DNA of 64,000 nucleotides. It comes from Microbacterium murale (GTDB lineage Bacteria; Actinomycetota; Actinomycetes; Actinomycetales; Microbacteriaceae). The notes beneath the pieces are model-generated. The model made no database searches. It saw only the letters and a program-made list of their open reading frames with translations, and was not told the DNA's origin. Location of the stretch: NCBI RefSeq assembly GCF_014635185.1, contig NZ_BMCM01000003.1, positions 171,623 through 235,622 of the forward strand, given 5' to 3'. A program made the position numbers and the translations under genes. Shown one piece after another: positions 6,702 through 15,677 of the stretch (its first letter is position 1; each line of letters begins with the position of its first letter).

Positions 6702-8294
6702 ATGGGACTCGGTCGCGCCAGCGCCATGATCGCGGCGGGTACGCTCACATCGCGGATCACTGGGCTGCTGCGCACGGTCGTGCTCATCTCCGCGATCGGC
6801 GCGCTCAGCGAGGCGGGAGACGCCTTCGCCACGGCGAACATGCTGCCCAACAGCATCTACCAGGTGATCTCCGCCGGTGTGCTCACGGGGGTTATCGTGC
6901 CCCAAGTGGTGCGGGCCACGGCGCAGAAGGACAGCGGTCACGCGTTCCTGGCGAAGCTGCTCACCCTGGGATTCGTGCTCGTCGGGGGAGTCACGGTCGT
7001 GGCGTTCTTGTGCGCGCCACTGCTGGTGAGTCTGTTCTCCTCGGCCGGATACTCACCCGAGCAGCATGCACTGGCGACCCAGTTCGCGTACTGGTGCATT
7101 CCACAGCTGTTCTTCTACGGCATGTTCGCCCTGCTGGGCGAGATACTCAACGCCCGCAGGATCTTCGCCCCATACGCCTGGGCGCCGATCATGAACAACA
7201 TCGTCTCGATCGCCGGGTTCCTCGTCTTCATGATGCTGTTCGGATCCGACCTCACGCAGGTTTCGCTCTGGAACCCGATGATGGTCATGGTGCTCGGCGG
7301 CACCGCGACACTCGGCATAGTCGCGCAGACCGTGGTGCTGATGTTCTTCTGGCGCAGAGCCGGCATCCCGCTGCGACTCGACTTCCGCTGGCGGGGCATG
7401 GGTCTCGGGCAGATGCGCACCCTGGCGACCTGGACGCTGCTGACCACCCTCATCGGTCAGCTCGTCGGCATCGTGCAGACTCAGACGCTTTCAGTGGCCT
7501 CCGGAGATTTCCCGTCCGTGTTCGCCTCGCAGAATGCGTGGCTGGTGTACATGGTTCCGTACTCGATGATCATCCTTGCGATCGGAACCCCGTACTTCAC
7601 CCGGATCAGTGAGCACGCCGCCGCCAAGCGCGATGTGGAACTGCGCGGAGACATCGCGCAGTCGATCCGCATCCTCGGACTCTTCGTCATCGTCGCGACT
7701 GCAGCGGTCGCGGCGGCCGCTGTTCCCGCGTCACGTGTTTTCAGCAACGGTGCAGACGAGGCGGTGCTGATCGCGCCGGTGCTGCTGGCGTTCCTGGTGA
7801 GCCTTCTGCCGATGGCGGTGCTGTTCATCGTGCAGCGCACGTTCTACGCGTACGGCGATGCGCGCACGCCGTTCATCTTCACGGTGGTGCAGGCCTCTTT
7901 GGTGCTCATCTTCACGATCGTGGTCGCCTTCACCGTCCCACTTGAGTGGCGTGCCGCCGCGGTCGCACTCGTTCAGGCGTGTTCCGGCATCGTGCAGACC
8001 GTGCTGGCGACGATCCTGCTGCGCCGCAAGATCGGCCCGCTCGGACTCGCCAGCACGTGGAGGGCACTCGCGCGTTTCGTGCTCATGGCGATCCCCGCCG
8101 GCGCCGCCGGTTACGGGGCGTTCCTGCTGAGCGGGGGAGCAGACGGTTGGATGCTGCAGGACAAGATCTGGGGAGCGCTCGGCGCCGTGCTGATCGCTGC
8201 GGTCTGCGGAGCGGTCTACCTGCTGCTGCTCTTCGTCTTCCGGGTGCCGGAACTGCGGGTCGCGATAGACACCGTGCGGAACCGTCGCGCCTGA
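6702..8294 (+). CDS. MurJ/MviN-type lipid II flippase paralogue
   Basis: 530-aa polytopic membrane protein of the MOP exporter superfamily, with about 14 predicted hydrophobic segments. The N terminus (SRITGLLRTVVLISAIGALSE, then AFATANMLPNSIYQV) matches the MurJ pattern of Arg-rich TM1 and the NxxPN-type loop. MurJ flips lipid-linked peptidoglycan precursor across the membrane. It lacks the long cytoplasmic kinase-like tail of mycobacterial MviN. The canonical actinobacterial murJ is normally near the rnpA/parAB end of the chromosome, so this copy, beside CofE-like, ATP-grasp and racemase genes, may be a second flippase for a modified substrate (inference). ATG at 6702 with GGAGGGG 10-15 bases upstream. 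Confidence 0.85.
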   Translation: MGLGRASAMIAAGTLTSRITGLLRTVVLISAIGALSEAGDAFATANMLPNSIYQVISAGVLTGVIVPQVVRATAQKDSGHAFLAKLLTLGFVLVGGVTVVAFLCAPLLVSLFSSAGYSPEQHALATQFAYWCIPQLFFYGMFALLGEILNARRIFAPYAWAPIMNNIVSIAGFLVFMMLFGSDLTQVSLWNPMMVMVLGGTATLGIVAQTVVLMFFWRRAGIPLRLDFRWRGMGLGQMRTLATWTLLTTLIGQLVGIVQTQTLSVASGDFPSVFASQNAWLVYMVPYSMIILAIGTPYFTRISEHAAAKRDVELRGDIAQSIRILGLFVIVATAAVAAAAVPASRVFSNGADEAVLIAPVLLAFLVSLLPMAVLFIVQRTFYAYGDARTPFIFTVVQASLVLIFTIVVAFTVPLEWRAAAVALVQACSGIVQTVLATILLRRKIGPLGLASTWRALARFVLMAIPAGAAGYGAFLLSGGADGWMLQDKIWGALGAVLIAAVCGAVYLLLLFVFRVPELRVAIDTVRNRRA

Positions 8295-8319
8295 GACCGC
8301 CGCTGCGGTACCGGGCGAC

Positions 8320-9354
8320 TCAGCGCTTGTTGTCGACCACGTCCGCGCCGATCGCGTCGCGGTAGCGGTACAGCAGCCCGGTGCGGATGCCTGAGGCGGA
8401 GGGCTTCATCTGGAAGACGCTCGAGTTGTGGTTCGCCTCGATGAGTGCGGGGCCCTCAGGCGTGATCGCGATGTCCCAGCCGACGTACGGCACGGTGGGC
8501 AGCCTCTTCGCAGCCTCGGCGATCATGTCGACCACCTCCGGGTAGAACGGCACCTGCAGACCCTTGATGGTCGTGCCGGTGGCCGGATGCTGGTGGTAGA
8601 TGTTCGACTGCTTGTCGACGCCGGGGTACAGAGCCACGCCGTCGTCGTCGAGCATGGTGAACATGCCGCCGGAGGCGAAGTTGTCGATCACGGCGCCATT
8701 GCCGATGCGCAGTACGGATGCGATCACGTGCAGCTCGTCCGCCGGGTCGCGGTAGGTGATCATCCGCACGGTGTTCACACTGTCGGGATACAACTTGTTC
8801 AGGTCGTCGTGCTGGGTCAGCACCTCTTCGAGCAGCGTCTGGTCGCGCTCGACCAGCAGCGTGCGCCACGCAGCGACGTCTGACACGTCCGCGGTCTCGT
8901 AGATGCCGATGCCCGCGCCGCCCTCACCGGCGGCCGGCTTGGCGATCACACGAGGGTGCCGGTCGATGAAGGCACGCAGTTCGTCGTCGTCGGCCGCAGC
9001 CGCATCGATCCACTCGCGGCCGGTGAGATCAGCGAAGTCGGTGAGAAAGCGCATCTTGTCGCCGAGGATGATCTTGGAATCCGGCCCGTTGAGGGTGCGA
9101 TTGAGTCGGAACGCCTTGGGGTGCGTCATCCACGTCGCCCGCTCGCGTGCGTTGAGGATGCGGATGTCCCACACGACGTAGTCGCGGAAGCCCATCTCGT
9201 AGCGTACGGAGCACCACAGCATGTCGCCGATGATGACGGGGAGAGGTGCCTTCGACACCTTCTTCACCTGATGCGCCAATTCGAACAGCTGGGTCGGATT
9301 GAGCCGCCGAGCCCGGTCGAAAAGGTACCGGATGCGCAACCGCTTCTGATCCAC
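8320..9354 (-). CDS. ATP-grasp ligase, sugar-transfer-associated (ATPgrasp_ST-like), copy 1
   Basis: 344 aa. ATP-grasp features: the ATP-binding lysine and glycine-rich loop VIAKPAAGEGGAGIG at 136-150, and the C-terminal metal-binding E306/N308 in LIEANHNS. The helical N terminus (about 1-100) resembles proteins annotated as sugar-transfer-associated ATP-grasp. Such enzymes activate a carboxylate as acyl phosphate and form amide bonds; the substrate is unknown. It is paralogous to the divergent gene at 9450 (shared VPTVPYxGWDxAxxPEGP and the final GIRTG motif). The start is GTG at 9354, six bases after TAGCCT with no Shine-Dalgarno, so leaderless. Convergent with murJ (25-bp gap). Confidence 0.8.
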   Translation of the reverse strand: MDQKRLRIRYLFDRARRLNPTQLFELAHQVKKVSKAPLPVIIGDMLWCSVRYEMGFRDYVVWDIRILNARERATWMTHPKAFRLNRTLNGPDSKIILGDKMRFLTDFADLTGREWIDAAAADDDELRAFIDRHPRVIAKPAAGEGGAGIGIYETADVSDVAAWRTLLVERDQTLLEEVLTQHDDLNKLYPDSVNTVRMITYRDPADELHVIASVLRIGNGAVIDNFASGGMFTMLDDDGVALYPGVDKQSNIYHQHPATGTTIKGLQVPFYPEVVDMIAEAAKRLPTVPYVGWDIAITPEGPALIEANHNSSVFQMKPSASGIRTGLLYRYRDAIGADVVDNKR

Positions 9355-9449
9355 CGACCCAGGCTAACACGCAGCCCTCAGCGGATCCGGGCAGGCGGAG
9401 CGAGTAGCATGAGACGTTCTGACATGCCCCCGCCGAAAGGTCTTTGCCC
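9355..9449. promoter_or_regulatory. Divergent promoter region between the two ATP-grasp genes
   Basis: On the minus strand TAGCCT (complement of 9361-9366) ends six bases before the GTG at 9354, giving a leaderless start. On the plus strand TAGCAT (9405-9410) lies about 40 bases before the TTG start at 9450, which has GAAAGG at 9435-9440. The paralogous ligases are therefore expressed from back-to-back promoters. Confidence 0.55.
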
Positions 9450-10481
9450 TTGTCTCGAGACGTCGCACCCATTGCGCGCCTGAAGTACCTTCTGAGGCGC
9501 CTCACCTCGTTCGATCCGCGTCGGGTGTGGGGGTTCGCGTCCCAGATCGCCAAGGAACAGGGCAAGTGGGCGCCGAGGGTCTTCGTCGACATGCTCGTCT
9601 GGGCGGCGTTGCACGACACGGCATACATCGACTACTACGAGGCCGACTTCGCGCTGCTGAGCAAGAGCGAGCGCAAGACCTTCATGACCTCGTTGATCCA
9701 GCATCATCTGGCCCAGGCGGTCAACGACCGCACCGACGTGCTGCAGTTCGAGAACAAGATCACCTTCAACCGCCGCTTCGCCGAGTACCTCGGCCGCGAC
9801 TGGCTCGACCTCGACGAGGTGGATGCCGAAGGCCTGCGCGCCTTCGCTGAGAAGAACCCGGTCTTCATCGCAAAGACACCTGTCGGCCGCGAGGGCAAGG
9901 GCGTCTTCCGGTACGAGGCGTCGGAGGTGACCGACTGGAACGCGTTCCGCGACGAACTGCGCGACAAGGGTCAGCGGCTCATCGAGCAGCGCATCGAGCA
10001 GCATCCGTATCTCTCCGAGTACTGCGAAGGCACCGTCAACACCACGCGCGTGGCGACGTTCTTCGACGGCACGAAAGTGCATGTGCTGATGGCCGCGCAG
10101 AAATTCGGCCGCGGCGCGGTGAGCGACCAGTTCACGTGGGGCGGCTTCTTCACGATGATCGACGAGAACGGCAAGTCCTTCGGACCGGGACACACCGGCA
10201 AGCACAAGTCGCGCTACGAGACGCACCCGGATTCGGGCAAGTCGATCGTCGACTTCGAGGTGCCGATGTGGGACCGCGTGGTCGATCTCGTCACACGCGC
10301 CGCACAGGAGGTGCCCACCGTGCCGTACATCGGGTGGGACGTCGCTGTCGGTCCAGAGGGTCCGATGCTGATCGAGGGAAACTGGACGCCAGGGCTCTAC
10401 GAGACCCGCGTGAGCGCCACCGGCATCCGCACCGGCAGCCGAGCGCGGCACCGTCCGGTGATCGAGGCCAGCAGGCGGTGA
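9450..10481 (+). CDS. ATP-grasp ligase, sugar-transfer-associated (ATPgrasp_ST-like), copy 2
   Basis: 343 aa from TTG at 9450, chosen because GAAAGG ends nine bases upstream; a TTG at 9444 would sit too close. ATP-binding loop VFIAKTPVGREGKGV at 138-152 and metal-binding E309/N311 in LIEGNWT. It parallels copy 1 along its length but differs in the putative acceptor region, so the two probably add different groups or act as a pair. Its stop overlaps the GTG of the racemase fragment gene by 4 bp (GTGA), so ligase and racemase are translationally coupled. Predicted cytosolic; substrate unknown. Confidence 0.8.
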   Translation: MSRDVAPIARLKYLLRRLTSFDPRRVWGFASQIAKEQGKWAPRVFVDMLVWAALHDTAYIDYYEADFALLSKSERKTFMTSLIQHHLAQAVNDRTDVLQFENKITFNRRFAEYLGRDWLDLDEVDAEGLRAFAEKNPVFIAKTPVGREGKGVFRYEASEVTDWNAFRDELRDKGQRLIEQRIEQHPYLSEYCEGTVNTTRVATFFDGTKVHVLMAAQKFGRGAVSDQFTWGGFFTMIDENGKSFGPGHTGKHKSRYETHPDSGKSIVDFEVPMWDRVVDLVTRAAQEVPTVPYIGWDVAVGPEGPMLIEGNWTPGLYETRVSATGIRTGSRARHRPVIEASRR

Positions 10482-11170
10482 CCCCGACGGGGAGCCTGCC
10501 GCGCGCACTCGTCTCGGCGGGAGCGCTGCGCGAGGGCGCCCTCGAGGCCGTCGCCCTCGGCGGCGAAATGGCCGACCTCCGCGGCGACGCGCTCGGACAC
10601 GGCGTACTCGAAGTCGCTGCGGTGGTGCGGGATGCCGGTGTGAAGACGGTCCTCGTCGACGATGCGCACATCGCCGAGCGCGTGCACGAACTGGACCTAC
10701 GCGCTGTGACGACCGGAGAAGCGGACATCGACAGCAGCGTCCTGTACGGTCTTCCCGGCGCCCAGACCGTACCGGCGATGCGGCTCGCGGGCCGGGTCGT
10801 CTCGACCAAGCCGCTGCGGGCCGGTGAAGCGGTCTCCTACGGCTACCGCCATCGAGCCGCCGTCGACACGACCGTGGCACTGGTGACCGGCGGCTACGCG
10901 CAGGGAATCGTCCGCGCACTCGGCAGCTCCGCTCACGTGGAAGTCGACGGCGTGCTGCGACCGATCGTGGGACGCGTGGCGATGGACGTGTGCGTGGTCG
11001 ACCTCGAGGACTCAGGGGCAGGCGAGGCCGTGGGTGCGGACGTCGTCTACTTCGGTGGCGCAGGGGTCGCTCGCGATGCCTTGGCGGAATGGGCCGACAT
11101 CACGGGACTCGGCATCGCCGAGCTCATCACCATCGCCGGCTTGAAGGCGGTGCGCGAATGGACGTCTTGA
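10478..11170 (+). CDS. Alanine racemase-like subunit: C-terminal (Tyr) domain with deleted barrel
   Basis: 230 aa, against about 370 for a full Alr. Residues 35-42 (RGDALGHG) align with the PLP loop KADAYGHG, with Arg35 replacing the Schiff-base lysine. The chain then jumps to the end of the barrel (SSVLYGLPG, 86-94), so about 130-150 barrel residues are missing. The C-terminal domain is well kept: GEAVSYGYR with the catalytic Tyr121, a GYAQG version of GYADG, and GRVAMD. By itself it should not bind PLP as an aldimine. It overlaps the upstream ATP-grasp gene (GTGA) and the downstream complementary subunit. The frame is open throughout and conserved motifs are intact, which argues against a decaying pseudogene. 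Confidence 0.8.
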   Translation: MTPTGSLPRALVSAGALREGALEAVALGGEMADLRGDALGHGVLEVAAVVRDAGVKTVLVDDAHIAERVHELDLRAVTTGEADIDSSVLYGLPGAQTVPAMRLAGRVVSTKPLRAGEAVSYGYRHRAAVDTTVALVTGGYAQGIVRALGSSAHVEVDGVLRPIVGRVAMDVCVVDLEDSGAGEAVGADVVYFGGAGVARDALAEWADITGLGIAELITIAGLKAVREWTS

Positions 11171-12210
11171 TGACTCCCACGCTCGAGATCTCACGCACGC
11201 GCTTCCTGCAGAACCTCGCTGCGGTGCACGAGCGGATCGGCCCCGCACAGCTCATGCTGGCGATGAAGGACGACGCGTACGGTCACGGCGTGGAGTGGGC
11301 GGCCTCCGTTGCGAAAGACGCGGCGCGACCTGTCGAAATGTTCGGCGGTTACGACGTGCACACTTCGTTGCGCATCCGCGCACAGGCAGAGCGGGCCACA
11401 GTGTTCGCCTGGGCGGATTCAAGCGATGACGAGATCGAACGAGCCCTCCACGCCCGCATCCAACTGGGAGTCGGATCCGCCGACTATCTGCGTCGCGTCA
11501 TCGACGTCGCCGGTCGCCTCGGTCTCACCGCACGCGTGCACCTGAAGATCGACACAGGGCTGCACCGCAACGGCATCCGGCCGGAGGACTGGCCACGAGT
11601 GGTCGCCGATGCGATGACTGCACAGCAGTCGGGCCTGATCGAAGTGGTCGGCGTGTGGAGTCATCTCGCCGAAGCGAGTGACGCGGAAGACGATGAGTCC
11701 GCCCGCGCGTTCCATGACGCCGTCGACGTGGTGCGCGCGATGGGCGGCGCTCCGCAGGCGCTGCACCTGACCGCCTCGGCAGCATCCTGGTGGCGTCCGG
11801 AGCTGCGCGGCACGGTATGCCGGATCGGTGCGTTCTGCTACGGCATCCGCTCGGCCGATGGACCTGAGATCCCCGGTGTCACACCGATCGCAGCCCTGCG
11901 CGCACGCGTGATCGAGGAGCGCGCAGGCGAAGTCGTGATCGGGCTGGGCGCGTACCACGGGCTTCCCTCGATCCTTGCCGGCGCGAGCATCGGAACCCCG
12001 GGAGGCGTGCGCGAGATCGTGCGGATCGACGCGACCAGCACCTTGGTCCGCGACTGGAACGATGCCCGCGTCGGCGACACGGTGACCGTGTTCGGGCCGG
12101 GGGATCAGGGCGAATCGGACGTGACGGCACTCGCCGAGCGGATCGACACCGTGGGCGAAGAGATCATCACCCGCCTCACCTCAGGGGTGCGGCGGGTGAT
12201 CGTGGACTGA
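11158..12210 (+). CDS. Alanine racemase-like subunit: PLP-barrel with degenerate C-terminal domain
   Basis: 350 aa from ATG 11158 (a second ATG at 11170 is possible). The N-terminal fold-III barrel is complete: KDDAYGHG with PLP Lys37, HLKIDTGLHRNG, a WSHLAEA segment and the barrel end GAFCYGIR. In the C-terminal domain the segment equivalent to VSYG reads VIGLG, so the catalytic tyrosine is absent. The GRxxMD motif is also lost, although GDTVTVFG and the terminal IDTVGEEIITRL remain. It overlaps by 13 bp the gene encoding the complementary half. I infer a heterodimeric amino acid racemase; Ala, Glu, Orn, Lys or Dab are all possible substrates. Confidence 0.82.
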   Translation: MDVLMTPTLEISRTRFLQNLAAVHERIGPAQLMLAMKDDAYGHGVEWAASVAKDAARPVEMFGGYDVHTSLRIRAQAERATVFAWADSSDDEIERALHARIQLGVGSADYLRRVIDVAGRLGLTARVHLKIDTGLHRNGIRPEDWPRVVADAMTAQQSGLIEVVGVWSHLAEASDAEDDESARAFHDAVDVVRAMGGAPQALHLTASAASWWRPELRGTVCRIGAFCYGIRSADGPEIPGVTPIAALRARVIEERAGEVVIGLGAYHGLPSILAGASIGTPGGVREIVRIDATSTLVRDWNDARVGDTVTVFGPGDQGESDVTALAERIDTVGEEIITRLTSGVRRVIVD

Positions 12211-12453: not shown

Positions 12454-12636
12454 CTCGGTGCCTCCTCGGGTATCGGCATCTCCAGTGGGAATGTGCTCAA
12501 TACAACCACGACTGGCTGATAGTCATGCCCGATGGACGGCGTGTTTCGCTCAGCGCGTACGCCGGAGCAGTCAGGGTGCGTCGCCAGGGGAGTGTCTGCA
12601 GAGCTTCGAACGTGGTCGCGAATAGAATCGAGGATT

Positions 12637-14715
12637 GTGACCGCTGAGTATTCCGCCCATCATCTTCAGGTTCTCGAAGGCCTTGAAGCGGTTCGCAAGC
12701 GCCCGGGCATGTACATCGGGTCGAACGGGTCGCCCGGACTCATGCACTGCCTGTGGGAGATCATCGACAACTCCGTCGATGAGGCCGTCGGAGGCAATGG
12801 CACGCGCATCGACGTGATCCTGCACGCGGACGGCAGCGTCGAGGTGCACGACCGCGGGCGAGGCATTCCCGTCGACATCGAACCGCGCACCGGTCTGACC
12901 GGCGTCGAGGTCGTCTACACCAAGCTCCACGCCGGCGGAAAGTTCGGCGGCGGATCCTACGCGGCATCCGGTGGTCTGCACGGAGTCGGCGCGTCCGTCG
13001 TGAACGCGCTCTCCGAACGGCTCGACGTCGAAGTCGACCGCGGCGGCAAGACCTACGCGATGTCATTCCACCGCGGGGAACCGGGCAACTTCAAGGATTC
13101 GGGCGAGAAGCGGCCGGATGCGCCGTTCGCGCCGTTCGAGAAGAGCAGCGAGCTCAGGATCGCGGGCAAGGCCCCGCGAGGCGTCACCGGAACGCGGGTG
13201 CGGTACTGGGCGGATCGTCAGATCTTCACGAAGGATGCCGCCTTCCAGCTCGCAGAGCTGGAGAACCGCGCACGTCAGACAGCATTCCTCGTCCCTGGGC
13301 TCGAGATCGTCGTCCGCGACGATCGAGGCGAAAAGAGCGCCGAGGTCTCGTACCGCTACGACGGCGGCATCGCGGAGTTCGTCGACTATCTCGCCGTCGA
13401 CGCGCCGATCACCGACACCTGGCGCATTCAGGGCACCGGAACATTCAAGGAGACCGTTCCCGTCCTGCAGGCGAACGGCCACATGACCTCCCAGGAGGTC
13501 GAACGCGAGTGCCGGGTCGACATCGCGATGCGGTGGGGCACAGGCTACGAGACGGTCACACGATCATTCGTGAACATCATCGCGACGCCCAAGGGCGGCA
13601 CGCACCAGCAGGGATTCGAGCAGGAACTGCTGAAGGTGCTGCGCTCCCAGGTCGAGCAGAACGCGCGCAGGCTCAAGGTCGGTAACGACAAGGTCGAGAA
13701 GGACGATGTGCTCGCGGGTCTCACCGCCGTGCTCACCGTCGAGGTGCCTGAGCCGCAGTTCGAAGGCCAGACCAAGGAGGTGCTCGGCACACCGGCCGTA
13801 CGTCAGGTCGTGGCGCAGGTGCTTCGCAAGGAGCTCGGCGCACGGTTCACCTCGACGAAGCGCGATGACAAGAACCAGGCCAGCCAGCTGCTGGACAAGG
13901 TCGTCTCCGAGATGAAGGCGCGTATCTCCGCACGCGCACACAAGGAGACCCAGCGACGCAAGAACGCCCTGGAGTCGTCGTCACTCCCGATCAAGCTCGT
14001 GGACTGCCGATCCAACGACGTCTCACGCAGCGAGCTGTTCATCGTGGAGGGCGACTCGGCGCTGGGAACAGCGCGTCGAGCCCGCGACAGCGAGATCCAG
14101 GCACTGCTGCCGATCCGCGGCAAGATCCTGAATGTGCAGCGCGCGTCGATCGGCGACATGCTCTCGAACGCCGAATGCGCCGCGATCATCCAGACGATCG
14201 GCGCGGGCTCCGGCCGCACCTTCGACATCGACGCGGCGCGCTATGGCAAGATCATCCTGATGAGCGACGCCGACGTCGACGGTGCACACATCCGCACGCT
14301 GCTGCTCACACTCTTCTTCCGCTACATGCGTCCGCTGATCGAGGAGGGACGCGTGTTCGCCGCGGTGCCTCCGCTGCACCGGGTCATCGTGATGAACCCC
14401 GGGTCCAAGCCGAACGAGACCATCTACACGTACACCGAGCAGGAGCTGCACGCCCTCCTCGCAAAGCTCCGCAAGACGAACAAGCGCTGGCATGAGCCGA
14501 TCCAGCGTTACAAGGGTCTCGGCGAGATGGATGCCGATCAGCTGGCGAACACGACGATGGACCGCGGAGGGCGACTACTGCGGCGCGTGCGCATGGAGGA
14601 CGCCGAGGCCGCAGGCCGGGTGTTCGAGCTGCTGATGGGCAATGAGGTCGCTCCCCGTCGCGAGTTCATCATCGACTCATCCGATCAGCTCTCCAGGGAG
14701 TCGATCGACGCGTGA
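12637..14715 (+). CDS. parE: DNA topoisomerase IV subunit B
   Basis: ATPase subunit of the type IIA topoisomerase that decatenates chromosomes. 692 aa from GTG 12637. GHKL ATPase motifs include EIIDNSVDEAVGG and GRGIPVD; TOPRIM motif EGDSALG starts at about 471 and DADVDGAHI at about 545; the C terminus has QRYKGLGEMD. The partner parC lies at 15710-18154, which supports Topo IV rather than gyrase (gyrB normally sits near the origin with recF). TAGAAT at 12623-12628 is a likely -10, giving a very short or absent leader. The stop overlaps the downstream arginase-family gene by 4 bp. Confidence 0.93.
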   Translation: MTAEYSAHHLQVLEGLEAVRKRPGMYIGSNGSPGLMHCLWEIIDNSVDEAVGGNGTRIDVILHADGSVEVHDRGRGIPVDIEPRTGLTGVEVVYTKLHAGGKFGGGSYAASGGLHGVGASVVNALSERLDVEVDRGGKTYAMSFHRGEPGNFKDSGEKRPDAPFAPFEKSSELRIAGKAPRGVTGTRVRYWADRQIFTKDAAFQLAELENRARQTAFLVPGLEIVVRDDRGEKSAEVSYRYDGGIAEFVDYLAVDAPITDTWRIQGTGTFKETVPVLQANGHMTSQEVERECRVDIAMRWGTGYETVTRSFVNIIATPKGGTHQQGFEQELLKVLRSQVEQNARRLKVGNDKVEKDDVLAGLTAVLTVEVPEPQFEGQTKEVLGTPAVRQVVAQVLRKELGARFTSTKRDDKNQASQLLDKVVSEMKARISARAHKETQRRKNALESSSLPIKLVDCRSNDVSRSELFIVEGDSALGTARRARDSEIQALLPIRGKILNVQRASIGDMLSNAECAAIIQTIGAGSGRTFDIDAARYGKIILMSDADVDGAHIRTLLLTLFFRYMRPLIEEGRVFAAVPPLHRVIVMNPGSKPNETIYTYTEQELHALLAKLRKTNKRWHEPIQRYKGLGEMDADQLANTTMDRGGRLLRRVRMEDAEAAGRVFELLMGNEVAPRREFIIDSSDQLSRESIDA

Positions 14716-15677
14716 CGTCGAATCGCCGCACCGGAGACGACGGCACGGGGGAGGGCGACCCCGTGATCGCACTGATCTCCGCGCCGTCGAATCTCGGGCT
14801 GAGGCCCCCGCAGCCCGGTGCGGTGCCTGGTACTGCGAAGGCGCCTGAGGCGCTGCGCGAGGCCGGCCTGCATGAGGTGCTGATCGGCCGGGGAGCTGTC
14901 GACTGGGGCGCAGTGCTGCCCGGTCGCTATGTCGACGACGAGGGCCGTCGCGCCGCCGGCACCGTGCGCAATCAAGGAGCGATCATCTATCACGCGCGGC
15001 TCCTCGCGCGTCGCATCGTCGAGGCTCGCGCTGCCGGGCTGGCGCCGCTTGTTCTCGGCGGTGACTGCAGCCTGCTCATGGCCGCAGGCATGGCAAGCAA
15101 GGTATCGGGCGGCGGGGGACTCGTGCACGTGGACGGCCACACCGATTTCCGTCATCCGGGCAACAGCGACGCCTATGGGAGCCTCGCCGGCGAAGACCTC
15201 GCAGCCGCGATCGGGCACCACGTTCCGGAGATCGCCGACATCGACGGTCTCGGCCCGTACTTCGAGGCTGACGCGACCGCGCACGTCGGCTGCCGGCGCG
15301 AGGACGAGTACGTCTCGGAGGTGTCGGCGCTGGTGGCTCTGACGATCCCGGCCGACCGGGTCATCCTGCACGGCGGTGTGCGCGCAGCAGCACAGATCGT
15401 CGCCACACCCGGTCTGGAGCGCGGATTCTGGCTTCAGGTCGATGTGGACGTGCTCGACCCCGAGCACATGCCCGCCGTCGACAGCCCGGACCCAGGCGGA
15501 TTGGCGCCGGACGAGCTCATCGCTCTGCTCCGAGGGATCGCTCCTCGTGCCTGGGGCGCATCGGTCACGGTGTTCGATCCGGATCTGGATCCGGAGGGCG
15601 CATACGCCGAGACAGTCGCGCGGGTCATCGAGGAGGGGCTCGGCGAACTCGGCACGGAAGCCGTCGAGCGCGATTGA
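14712..15677 (+). CDS. Arginase/agmatinase-fold (ureohydrolase) family protein
   Basis: 321 aa. Ureohydrolases hydrolyse guanidino compounds with a dinuclear Mn centre. Ligand motifs seen: D141-x-H143-x-D145 in VDGHTDF, and D244/D246 in DVDVLDP. In the motif usually written GGDHS the His is replaced by C119 (GGDCS), as in a non-canonical subfamily, so substrate and metal occupancy are uncertain. The GTG start overlaps the parE stop (GTGA). It is tucked between parE and parC, and no other arginine catabolism gene is nearby. Predicted soluble. Confidence 0.8.
   Translation: MTSNRRTGDDGTGEGDPVIALISAPSNLGLRPPQPGAVPGTAKAPEALREAGLHEVLIGRGAVDWGAVLPGRYVDDEGRRAAGTVRNQGAIIYHARLLARRIVEARAAGLAPLVLGGDCSLLMAAGMASKVSGGGGLVHVDGHTDFRHPGNSDAYGSLAGEDLAAAIGHHVPEIADIDGLGPYFEADATAHVGCRREDEYVSEVSALVALTIPADRVILHGGVRAAAQIVATPGLERGFWLQVDVDVLDPEHMPAVDSPDPGGLAPDELIALLRGIAPRAWGASVTVFDPDLDPEGAYAETVARVIEEGLGELGTEAVERD

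Follow-up and report, generated by a model that had tools for sequence, protein, structure and literature searches.

Racemase genes of the window and their neighbours

The window, the whole 64,000-nucleotide stretch of Microbacterium murale DNA that was analysed, contains two neighbouring and overlapping genes on one strand, designated A and B, whose products correspond to different parts of alanine racemase (Alr). These genes, the codons discussed below and the relevant neighbours are as follows.

6702..8294, plus strand: gene for a MurJ-family flippase (TIGR01695, 247 bits, cut-off 235.6)
8320..9354, minus strand: second ATP-grasp ligase (PF14397)
9444..10481, plus strand: ATP-grasp ligase (PF14397), the proposed bridge ligase, overlapping gene A by 4 nt
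10478..11170, plus strand: gene A, the Tyr half, 230 aa with a GTG start, encoding a truncated barrel and a complete Alr C-terminal domain
10580..10582, plus strand: codon for A Arg35, in the PLP-lysine position
10838..10840, plus strand: codon for A Tyr121, the equivalent of Alr Tyr265
11170..12210, plus strand: gene B, the Lys half, 346 aa, encoding a complete barrel and a C-terminal domain without the Tyr segment (alternative ATG start at 11158, graded less likely than 11170)
11266..11268, plus strand: codon for the B PLP lysine (Lys37 counted from 11158, Lys33 from 11170)
12157..12159, plus strand: codon for B Glu330 (346-aa numbering), in the Alr Tyr354 position
12532..14715, plus strand: parE, a conserved neighbour outside the system, labelled by sequence reading

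Profile searches recognize the whole Alr C-terminal domain in A (PF00842, 89 bits), with no match to PF01168 in the same protein, and the Alr barrel in B (PF01168, 133.8 bits), where PF00842 is matched in its distal part only (28 bits). Both proteins are predicted to adopt the Alr fold in single-chain models. The hallmarks of the alanine racemase family are distributed over the two chains, PF01168 with the lysine being found in B, and PF00842 with the tyrosine and the GRxxMD motif in A. The combination of lysine and tyrosine in one chain that characterizes a homodimeric Alr is missing, since the Tyr segment is absent from B in 42/42 of the pairs compared below and the lysine from A in 41/42, and the Tyr354 of alanine-specific enzymes is replaced in B by Glu or Asp in 42/42. 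Residue positions (39, 43, 136, 166, 204, 219, 265, 284, 312, 354) follow Geobacillus Alr numbering; in the Alr structure the residues kept by B and by A are the two sets that opposite subunits give to one site, and position 354 adjoins the substrate side chain. A separate, normal Alr that keeps Tyr354 is encoded elsewhere in the window genome (C2:530875-531942), and the A/B pair is therefore an addition.

The earlier note on this DNA had described complementary active-site halves in two overlapping genes, and this description stands with small corrections, A being the Tyr half and B the Lys half, reciprocal in 42/42 pairs. The 13-bp overlap that it gave is probably a start-codon artefact, with the B start at 11170 favoured over the ATG at 11158.

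Conservation, fusion and origin of the split pair

Forty loci from other genomes of the family were compared with the window, giving 41 Microbacteriaceae loci with 42 pairs, as locus L098 has two. The loci were chosen from match lists, mainly by their best B matches with A matches in view, so that a score of 42/42 describes found pairs that are intact and is not a pair frequency, and the counts include related genomes and are to that extent inflated. The same reciprocal loss is seen in 42/42 pairs, with A immediately preceding B in the same orientation in every one and an A/B overlap of 4 nt in 35/42, a figure that depends on the start choice made. B keeps Lys39, Tyr43, Arg136, His166, Ser204 and Arg219 throughout, has a gap at Tyr265 in all 42 proteins, and is invariably acidic at position 354 (Glu 22, Asp 20). 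All 42 A proteins have Tyr265 and Met312 and either Tyr or Phe at 284, and all lack His166; Lys39 is missing from 41 (two of these being gaps), and the sole A with Lys39, at L081, has it in a degenerate N-terminus. A and B gave pN/pS values of 0.33-0.55 and 0.28-0.51, respectively, across nine comparisons, and A is under purifying selection. Two split pairs each occur in M. sufflavum (G309: L197, L207) and in G225 (L098).

These 42 pairs in 41 loci bear out the co-occurrence across the Microbacteriaceae that the earlier note had raised, and the broken or absent fragment beside its partner that it had envisaged was not seen among the 42, the loci having been picked from B and A match lists. The interpretation given in that note is supported in part. 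Its account of duplication and reciprocal loss, yielding a partner pair that would share one composite site, is well supported by comparison, namely by this conservation and by the fusions and split Alr described below. When the B profile was run against 297 genomes of the order (274 from other families), a search that could miss rare split pairs outside the family, the matches listed outside the family were all at or below 355.4 bits, which is within the range of canonical Alr, as canonical Alr reaches 396 bits in the family. A scan of viral contigs for B gave 11 pattern stretches with no relative among them.

Acid-354 racemases also occur unsplit, as full-length homologues with the lysine, Tyr265 and an acid at 354 that are encoded in tandem after a normal Alr (Tyr354). 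This tandem is present in 12/20 loci of one fetched set, as well as in G163 and two genomes of Curtobacterium (L111, L112), and the other eight loci of the set consist of four single canonical Alr, three split or fused pairs and one whose frame is ambiguous. In a barrel tree built without L232, L175 and L238 (the last being the same locus as L248), the acid-354 racemases, split or unsplit, form one clade of 66 rows with support of 100/97, the exception being one long-branched row, L097. Genomes of the window genus are intermixed with named Microbacterium on this tree. Split B requires six state changes on this tree, at least five of them forced by well supported branches. The barrel tree rejects a single origin of the split (AU p 0.010, the group having been named after the tree was seen), and constraining the 14 unsplit acid-354 proteins to one group does not lead to rejection at the 0.05 level (AU p 0.055); L097 and L102 were excluded from the AU tests because of their long branches. 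As loss of a segment is easier than its regain, there have probably been several independent splits, with regain by recombination as the alternative. The C-domain tree, with 134 columns, is poorly resolved and does not separate descent of A from Alr and descent from an acid racemase.

The halves are found joined as well. In G234, A and B form a single 832-codon open frame of uncertain start, in which the Tyr half precedes the Lys half, and both racemases of this genome are fused half-plus-half open frames (L237 2682-5180, minus strand; L252 91-1929).

Alr itself has been divided in parts of the family. Each g78 genome (G077, G140, G192, G238, G278; 5/5 in the sample) has four PF00842 matches that are the halves of two pairs, one of the acid type and one of the Ala type, the latter with Tyr354 kept and the Lys half followed by the Tyr half, and the PF00842 search revealed no intact Alr in any of the five. 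The Tyr half of this Ala-type pair is placed amid acid-354 racemases of full length on the C-domain tree, a hint that the pair may have arisen from two different racemases that became complementary. In g74 (G073, G136, G188, G234, G274; 5/5) a single chain, 612-627 aa long when counted from the first start codon, contains both Ala-type halves; one divergent intact racemase-like gene is additionally present in each of G073, G188 and G274, no such gene was found in G234 by PF00842, and G136 has a single match to the B profile and to the A profile. The same fused Ala-type chain is present in the four g21 genomes examined of six (G020, G211, G255, G293; G100 and G161 being outside the check), with a single match each in the B and A profile searches. 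Altogether, Alr is seen as complementary halves alone in five genomes with separate genes and nine with fused ones, and since D-Ala is required for peptidoglycan, these halves very likely work, unless D-Ala comes from elsewhere, for example from a transaminase. A literature search for split or heterodimeric Alr listed nothing relevant. Further divergent intact racemase-like proteins have His or Ala at 354 (L254, at G106 C1:3063782, and L264-L266).

Ligase genes beside the pair and walls of the carriers

By profile, the ligase adjoining the pair in the 41 loci is MurT plus GatD at 23 and ATP-grasp at 14, with both at 0 and neither at four (L096, L100, L103, L110), and this exclusivity has a Fisher p of 9e-8 with related genomes treated as independent. 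A MurT_C search of the window genome gave no match. ATP-grasp was rejected as a universal partner, PF14397 being over its cut-off in just 62/299 family genomes. A MurJ-family gene and two ATP-grasp genes precede the racemase pair in 3/41 loci, those of the window (6702-10481), G137 and G084 (L076, L083). In G180, G127, G173, G118, G107 and G032 an ATPgrasp_ST gene has a MurT_C-like match no more than ~2 kb away, an arrangement that may belong to another polymer system. An arginase-family gene (PF00491) occupies 14712-15677 of the window between parE and parC, and a search of the other 40 loci gave no homologue of it.

The GatD encoded at these loci aligns with Staphylococcus aureus GatD (E 2e-30), and the nucleophile Cys of the latter (ICGGYQ) is missing from 33/33 GatD copies linked to acid-354 racemases, which come from 22 pair loci, two named Microbacterium, six verified-tandem genomes, two genus-assigned cases and one weak match (L101). 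It is present in 11/11 canonical GatD, two of them second copies in the pair-bearing genomes G054 and G066; the GatD profile was built without three off-frame ORFs. Ammonia supply by a Cys-less GatD is not expected. Cys-less GatD with MurT also lies between sigA and parE in G002, G086, G142, G240, G010 and Cryobacterium sp. Y11 (the sigA, parE and parC labels are our reading of the sequences), and no acid-354 racemase was found in G002, G142, G240 and Y11 by sequence check or in G086 and G010 by match count, so that Cys loss tracks the locus and not the racemase. A Fisher test of the Cys (0/32 vs 9/10) was set aside because it predates this finding; racemase absence had been sequence-checked in 2/9 of its Cys-bearing genomes (G003, G270) and taken from match counts in the others, and G016, counted there as racemase-free, has two matches in the racemase count search. 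The parE match is interrupted by in-frame stop codons in G002 (a TAG) and in G121 (a TGA and a TAG), which may lie at the edge of the match.

Among the 13 genomes of the window genus in the 297-genome order sample, G485, G519 and G589 have one racemase match each, a canonical Alr with Tyr354, and between sigA and parE they carry an ATP-grasp gene alone. Microcella alkalica likewise has an ATP-grasp gene without the racemase pair at this spot, and no ligase was found between sigA and parE in G003, G024 and G121. The two components can also lie apart, as in G471, where the split pair is far from that genome's own MurT-GatD locus, and in Curtobacterium, where the racemase is away from the ligase. 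A ligase with or without a racemase is what D-bridge and L-bridge walls, respectively, would need, and we predict L-Lys in the walls of G485, G519 and G589.

Sixteen genomes were reached via named loci, and among the matches listed 11 have the split pair, two (Curtobacterium) the unsplit tandem and three neither. The split pair is present, among the matches listed, in Microbacterium resistens, M. testaceum StLB037, M. oxydans and M. sufflavum SSW1-51, in the Microbacterium strains or MAGs TPD7012, USTB-Y, 69-10 and BIN20, and in three further MAGs, one labelled Cryobacterium; these named-genome matches are mostly canonical Alr, absence of the pair from a named species is not readable from them, and the chemotype support consists of positive cases only. 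The wall of M. resistens contains ornithine, and that of Cryobacterium Dab. Cryobacterium sp. Y11 has Tyr354 racemases only and, with Dab in the wall of its genus, would need another racemase, which makes it a possible exception to the fit between racemase and D-bridge.

One taxonomic source (PMC10757982) gives D-ornithine for the wall of M. sufflavum, naming strain SSW1-51, and likewise for closely related type strains, M. oxydans included. The source also assigns D-Orn to the M. liquefaciens/oxydans clade and to the M. testaceum clade except M. enclense, which has L-Lys, and lists D-Orn, L-Lys or Dab for walls across the genus Microbacterium. The literature agrees with a D-diamino acid in carrier walls for M. 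sufflavum and for the M. oxydans and M. testaceum clades, and Y11 has no simple fit.

A proposed composite diamino acid racemase

We consider it likely, on sequence grounds, that A and B make up a D-ornithine/D-diaminobutyrate racemase, a heterodimer that has a single composite site and supplies the ligase for the type-B peptidoglycan bridge. A and B would form a 1:1 heterodimer like an Alr dimer with one of its two active sites retained, and the small gene overlaps may keep their synthesis near 1:1. The natural fusions lend indirect support to such an association. From B would come the PLP lysine, the contacts to phosphate and pyridine, and the acidic residue at 354; from A, the catalytic Tyr on the opposing side, a second Tyr and the GRxAMD loop. 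B Lys33 would hold PLP, A Tyr121 would reach over as the second Alr subunit does, and the Lys and Tyr bases would act on opposite faces. The acid at 354 could bind the ammonium group on the side chain of ornithine or 2,4-diaminobutyrate, selecting diamino acids, in which case the enzyme would make a D-diamino acid. In the species of the window the product would be D-Orn, which would bridge D-Glu to D-Ala in type-B2 peptidoglycan. It would pass to the neighbouring ligase (ATP-grasp here, MurT plus Cys-less GatD in other genomes) which would join it to the precursor at the D-Glu alpha-carboxyl, and the loss of the GatD Cys would fit a switch from ammonia to an amino acid as the nucleophile. ATPgrasp_ST enzymes are not known to have a proven role in peptidoglycan.

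Among the close comparators, Alr itself (PF01168 plus PF00842), a homodimer of PLP fold type III, shares with A/B the fold, the PLP-Lys motif, the GRxxMD loop and, by our proposal, the Tyr contributed from the opposite chain, but A/B has two dissimilar chains with half a site each, the acid at 354 and, as proposed, a single composite site in place of two. The broad-specificity and lysine racemases Bar (4dyj), Lyr (4dza) and BsrV (7agz) have the same fold and, as proposed for A/B, a cationic substrate, though they are listed as full-length chains of 371-388 residues. Serine palmitoyltransferase and the trypanosomatid prozymes are similar in being paralogue pairs with one partner lacking the catalytic Lys, but they have other folds and reactions, whereas A has lost much of its barrel and would give the second catalytic base. 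Homologues of the MurT/GatD lipid II amidotransferase are found at 23/41 pair loci, but unlike that enzyme the pair-locus GatD is without the glutaminase Cys. PddB, a cofactor-independent Dab racemase, yields D-Dab, as proposed for some relatives of A/B, but it has DapF homology and no PLP (PMC8225329).

Decay of a tandem duplicate could leave reciprocal losses in two copies within one genome, but the complementary residues are conserved in 42/42 pairs with pN/pS well below 1, and there are signs of repeated origin and in-frame fusions, so that a functionless pair is highly improbable. That B is an active PLP enzyme alone, with A as a non-catalytic regulatory or chaperone subunit of the kind known in prozyme-type activators of other enzymes, is distinctly unlikely, for A has kept the catalytic Tyr, the second Tyr/Phe and the GRxAM loop in 42/42 despite the loss of much of its barrel, B has no Tyr segment in any pair, and the unsplit homologues hold both Lys and Tyr in one chain. 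If instead the composite racemase acted on alanine or another small amino acid, its membership in the Alr family and the existence of Tyr354 split and fused halves would fit; we regard this as unlikely, as an intact Alr is also present in the window genome, position 354 is acidic in all 42 split B and in the unsplit homologues although the Ala-type halves keep Tyr, and the acid-354 racemases form one clade (100/97), one long-branched row excepted.

There is a small but appreciable chance that the racemase is a genuine composite enzyme but its product is destined for elsewhere than the wall bridge, for example a capsule, a poly-amino acid or a free D-amino acid. PF14397 is named 'sugar-transfer associated', and MurJ relatives may export other polymers, but MurT occupies the same place as the ATP-grasp gene and, in the known systems, activates the D-Glu alpha-carboxyl of lipid II, and D-Orn walls are given for carriers in the source cited above. 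A heterodimeric diamino acid racemase serving the wall bridge is the reading that we prefer, and it extends the earlier note by probably several splits, by the unsplit acid-354 homologues, by the probable diamino acid substrate and by a putative cell-wall bridge locus. A literature search covering open-licence papers found no paper naming these enzymes.

On balance we lean towards a wider view, in which the racemases of Microbacteriaceae, Alr included, have repeatedly turned from two-site homodimers into single-site enzymes, either obligate heterodimers or fused pseudo-dimers, whose one site is composite. In this view the acid-354 pair, together with either MurT/Cys-less GatD or an ATP-grasp ligase, would make and attach the type-B D-diamino acid bridge, and the presence of the racemase would predict D over L bridge residues. 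If so, a textbook two-site enzyme would have been naturally dissected into two interdependent halves, apparently more than once in evolution. The locus would also provide candidate genes for the type-B peptidoglycan cross-bridge, and the wall chemotype (D-Orn, D-Dab or L-Lys) that is used in the taxonomy of the family would become predictable from one locus.
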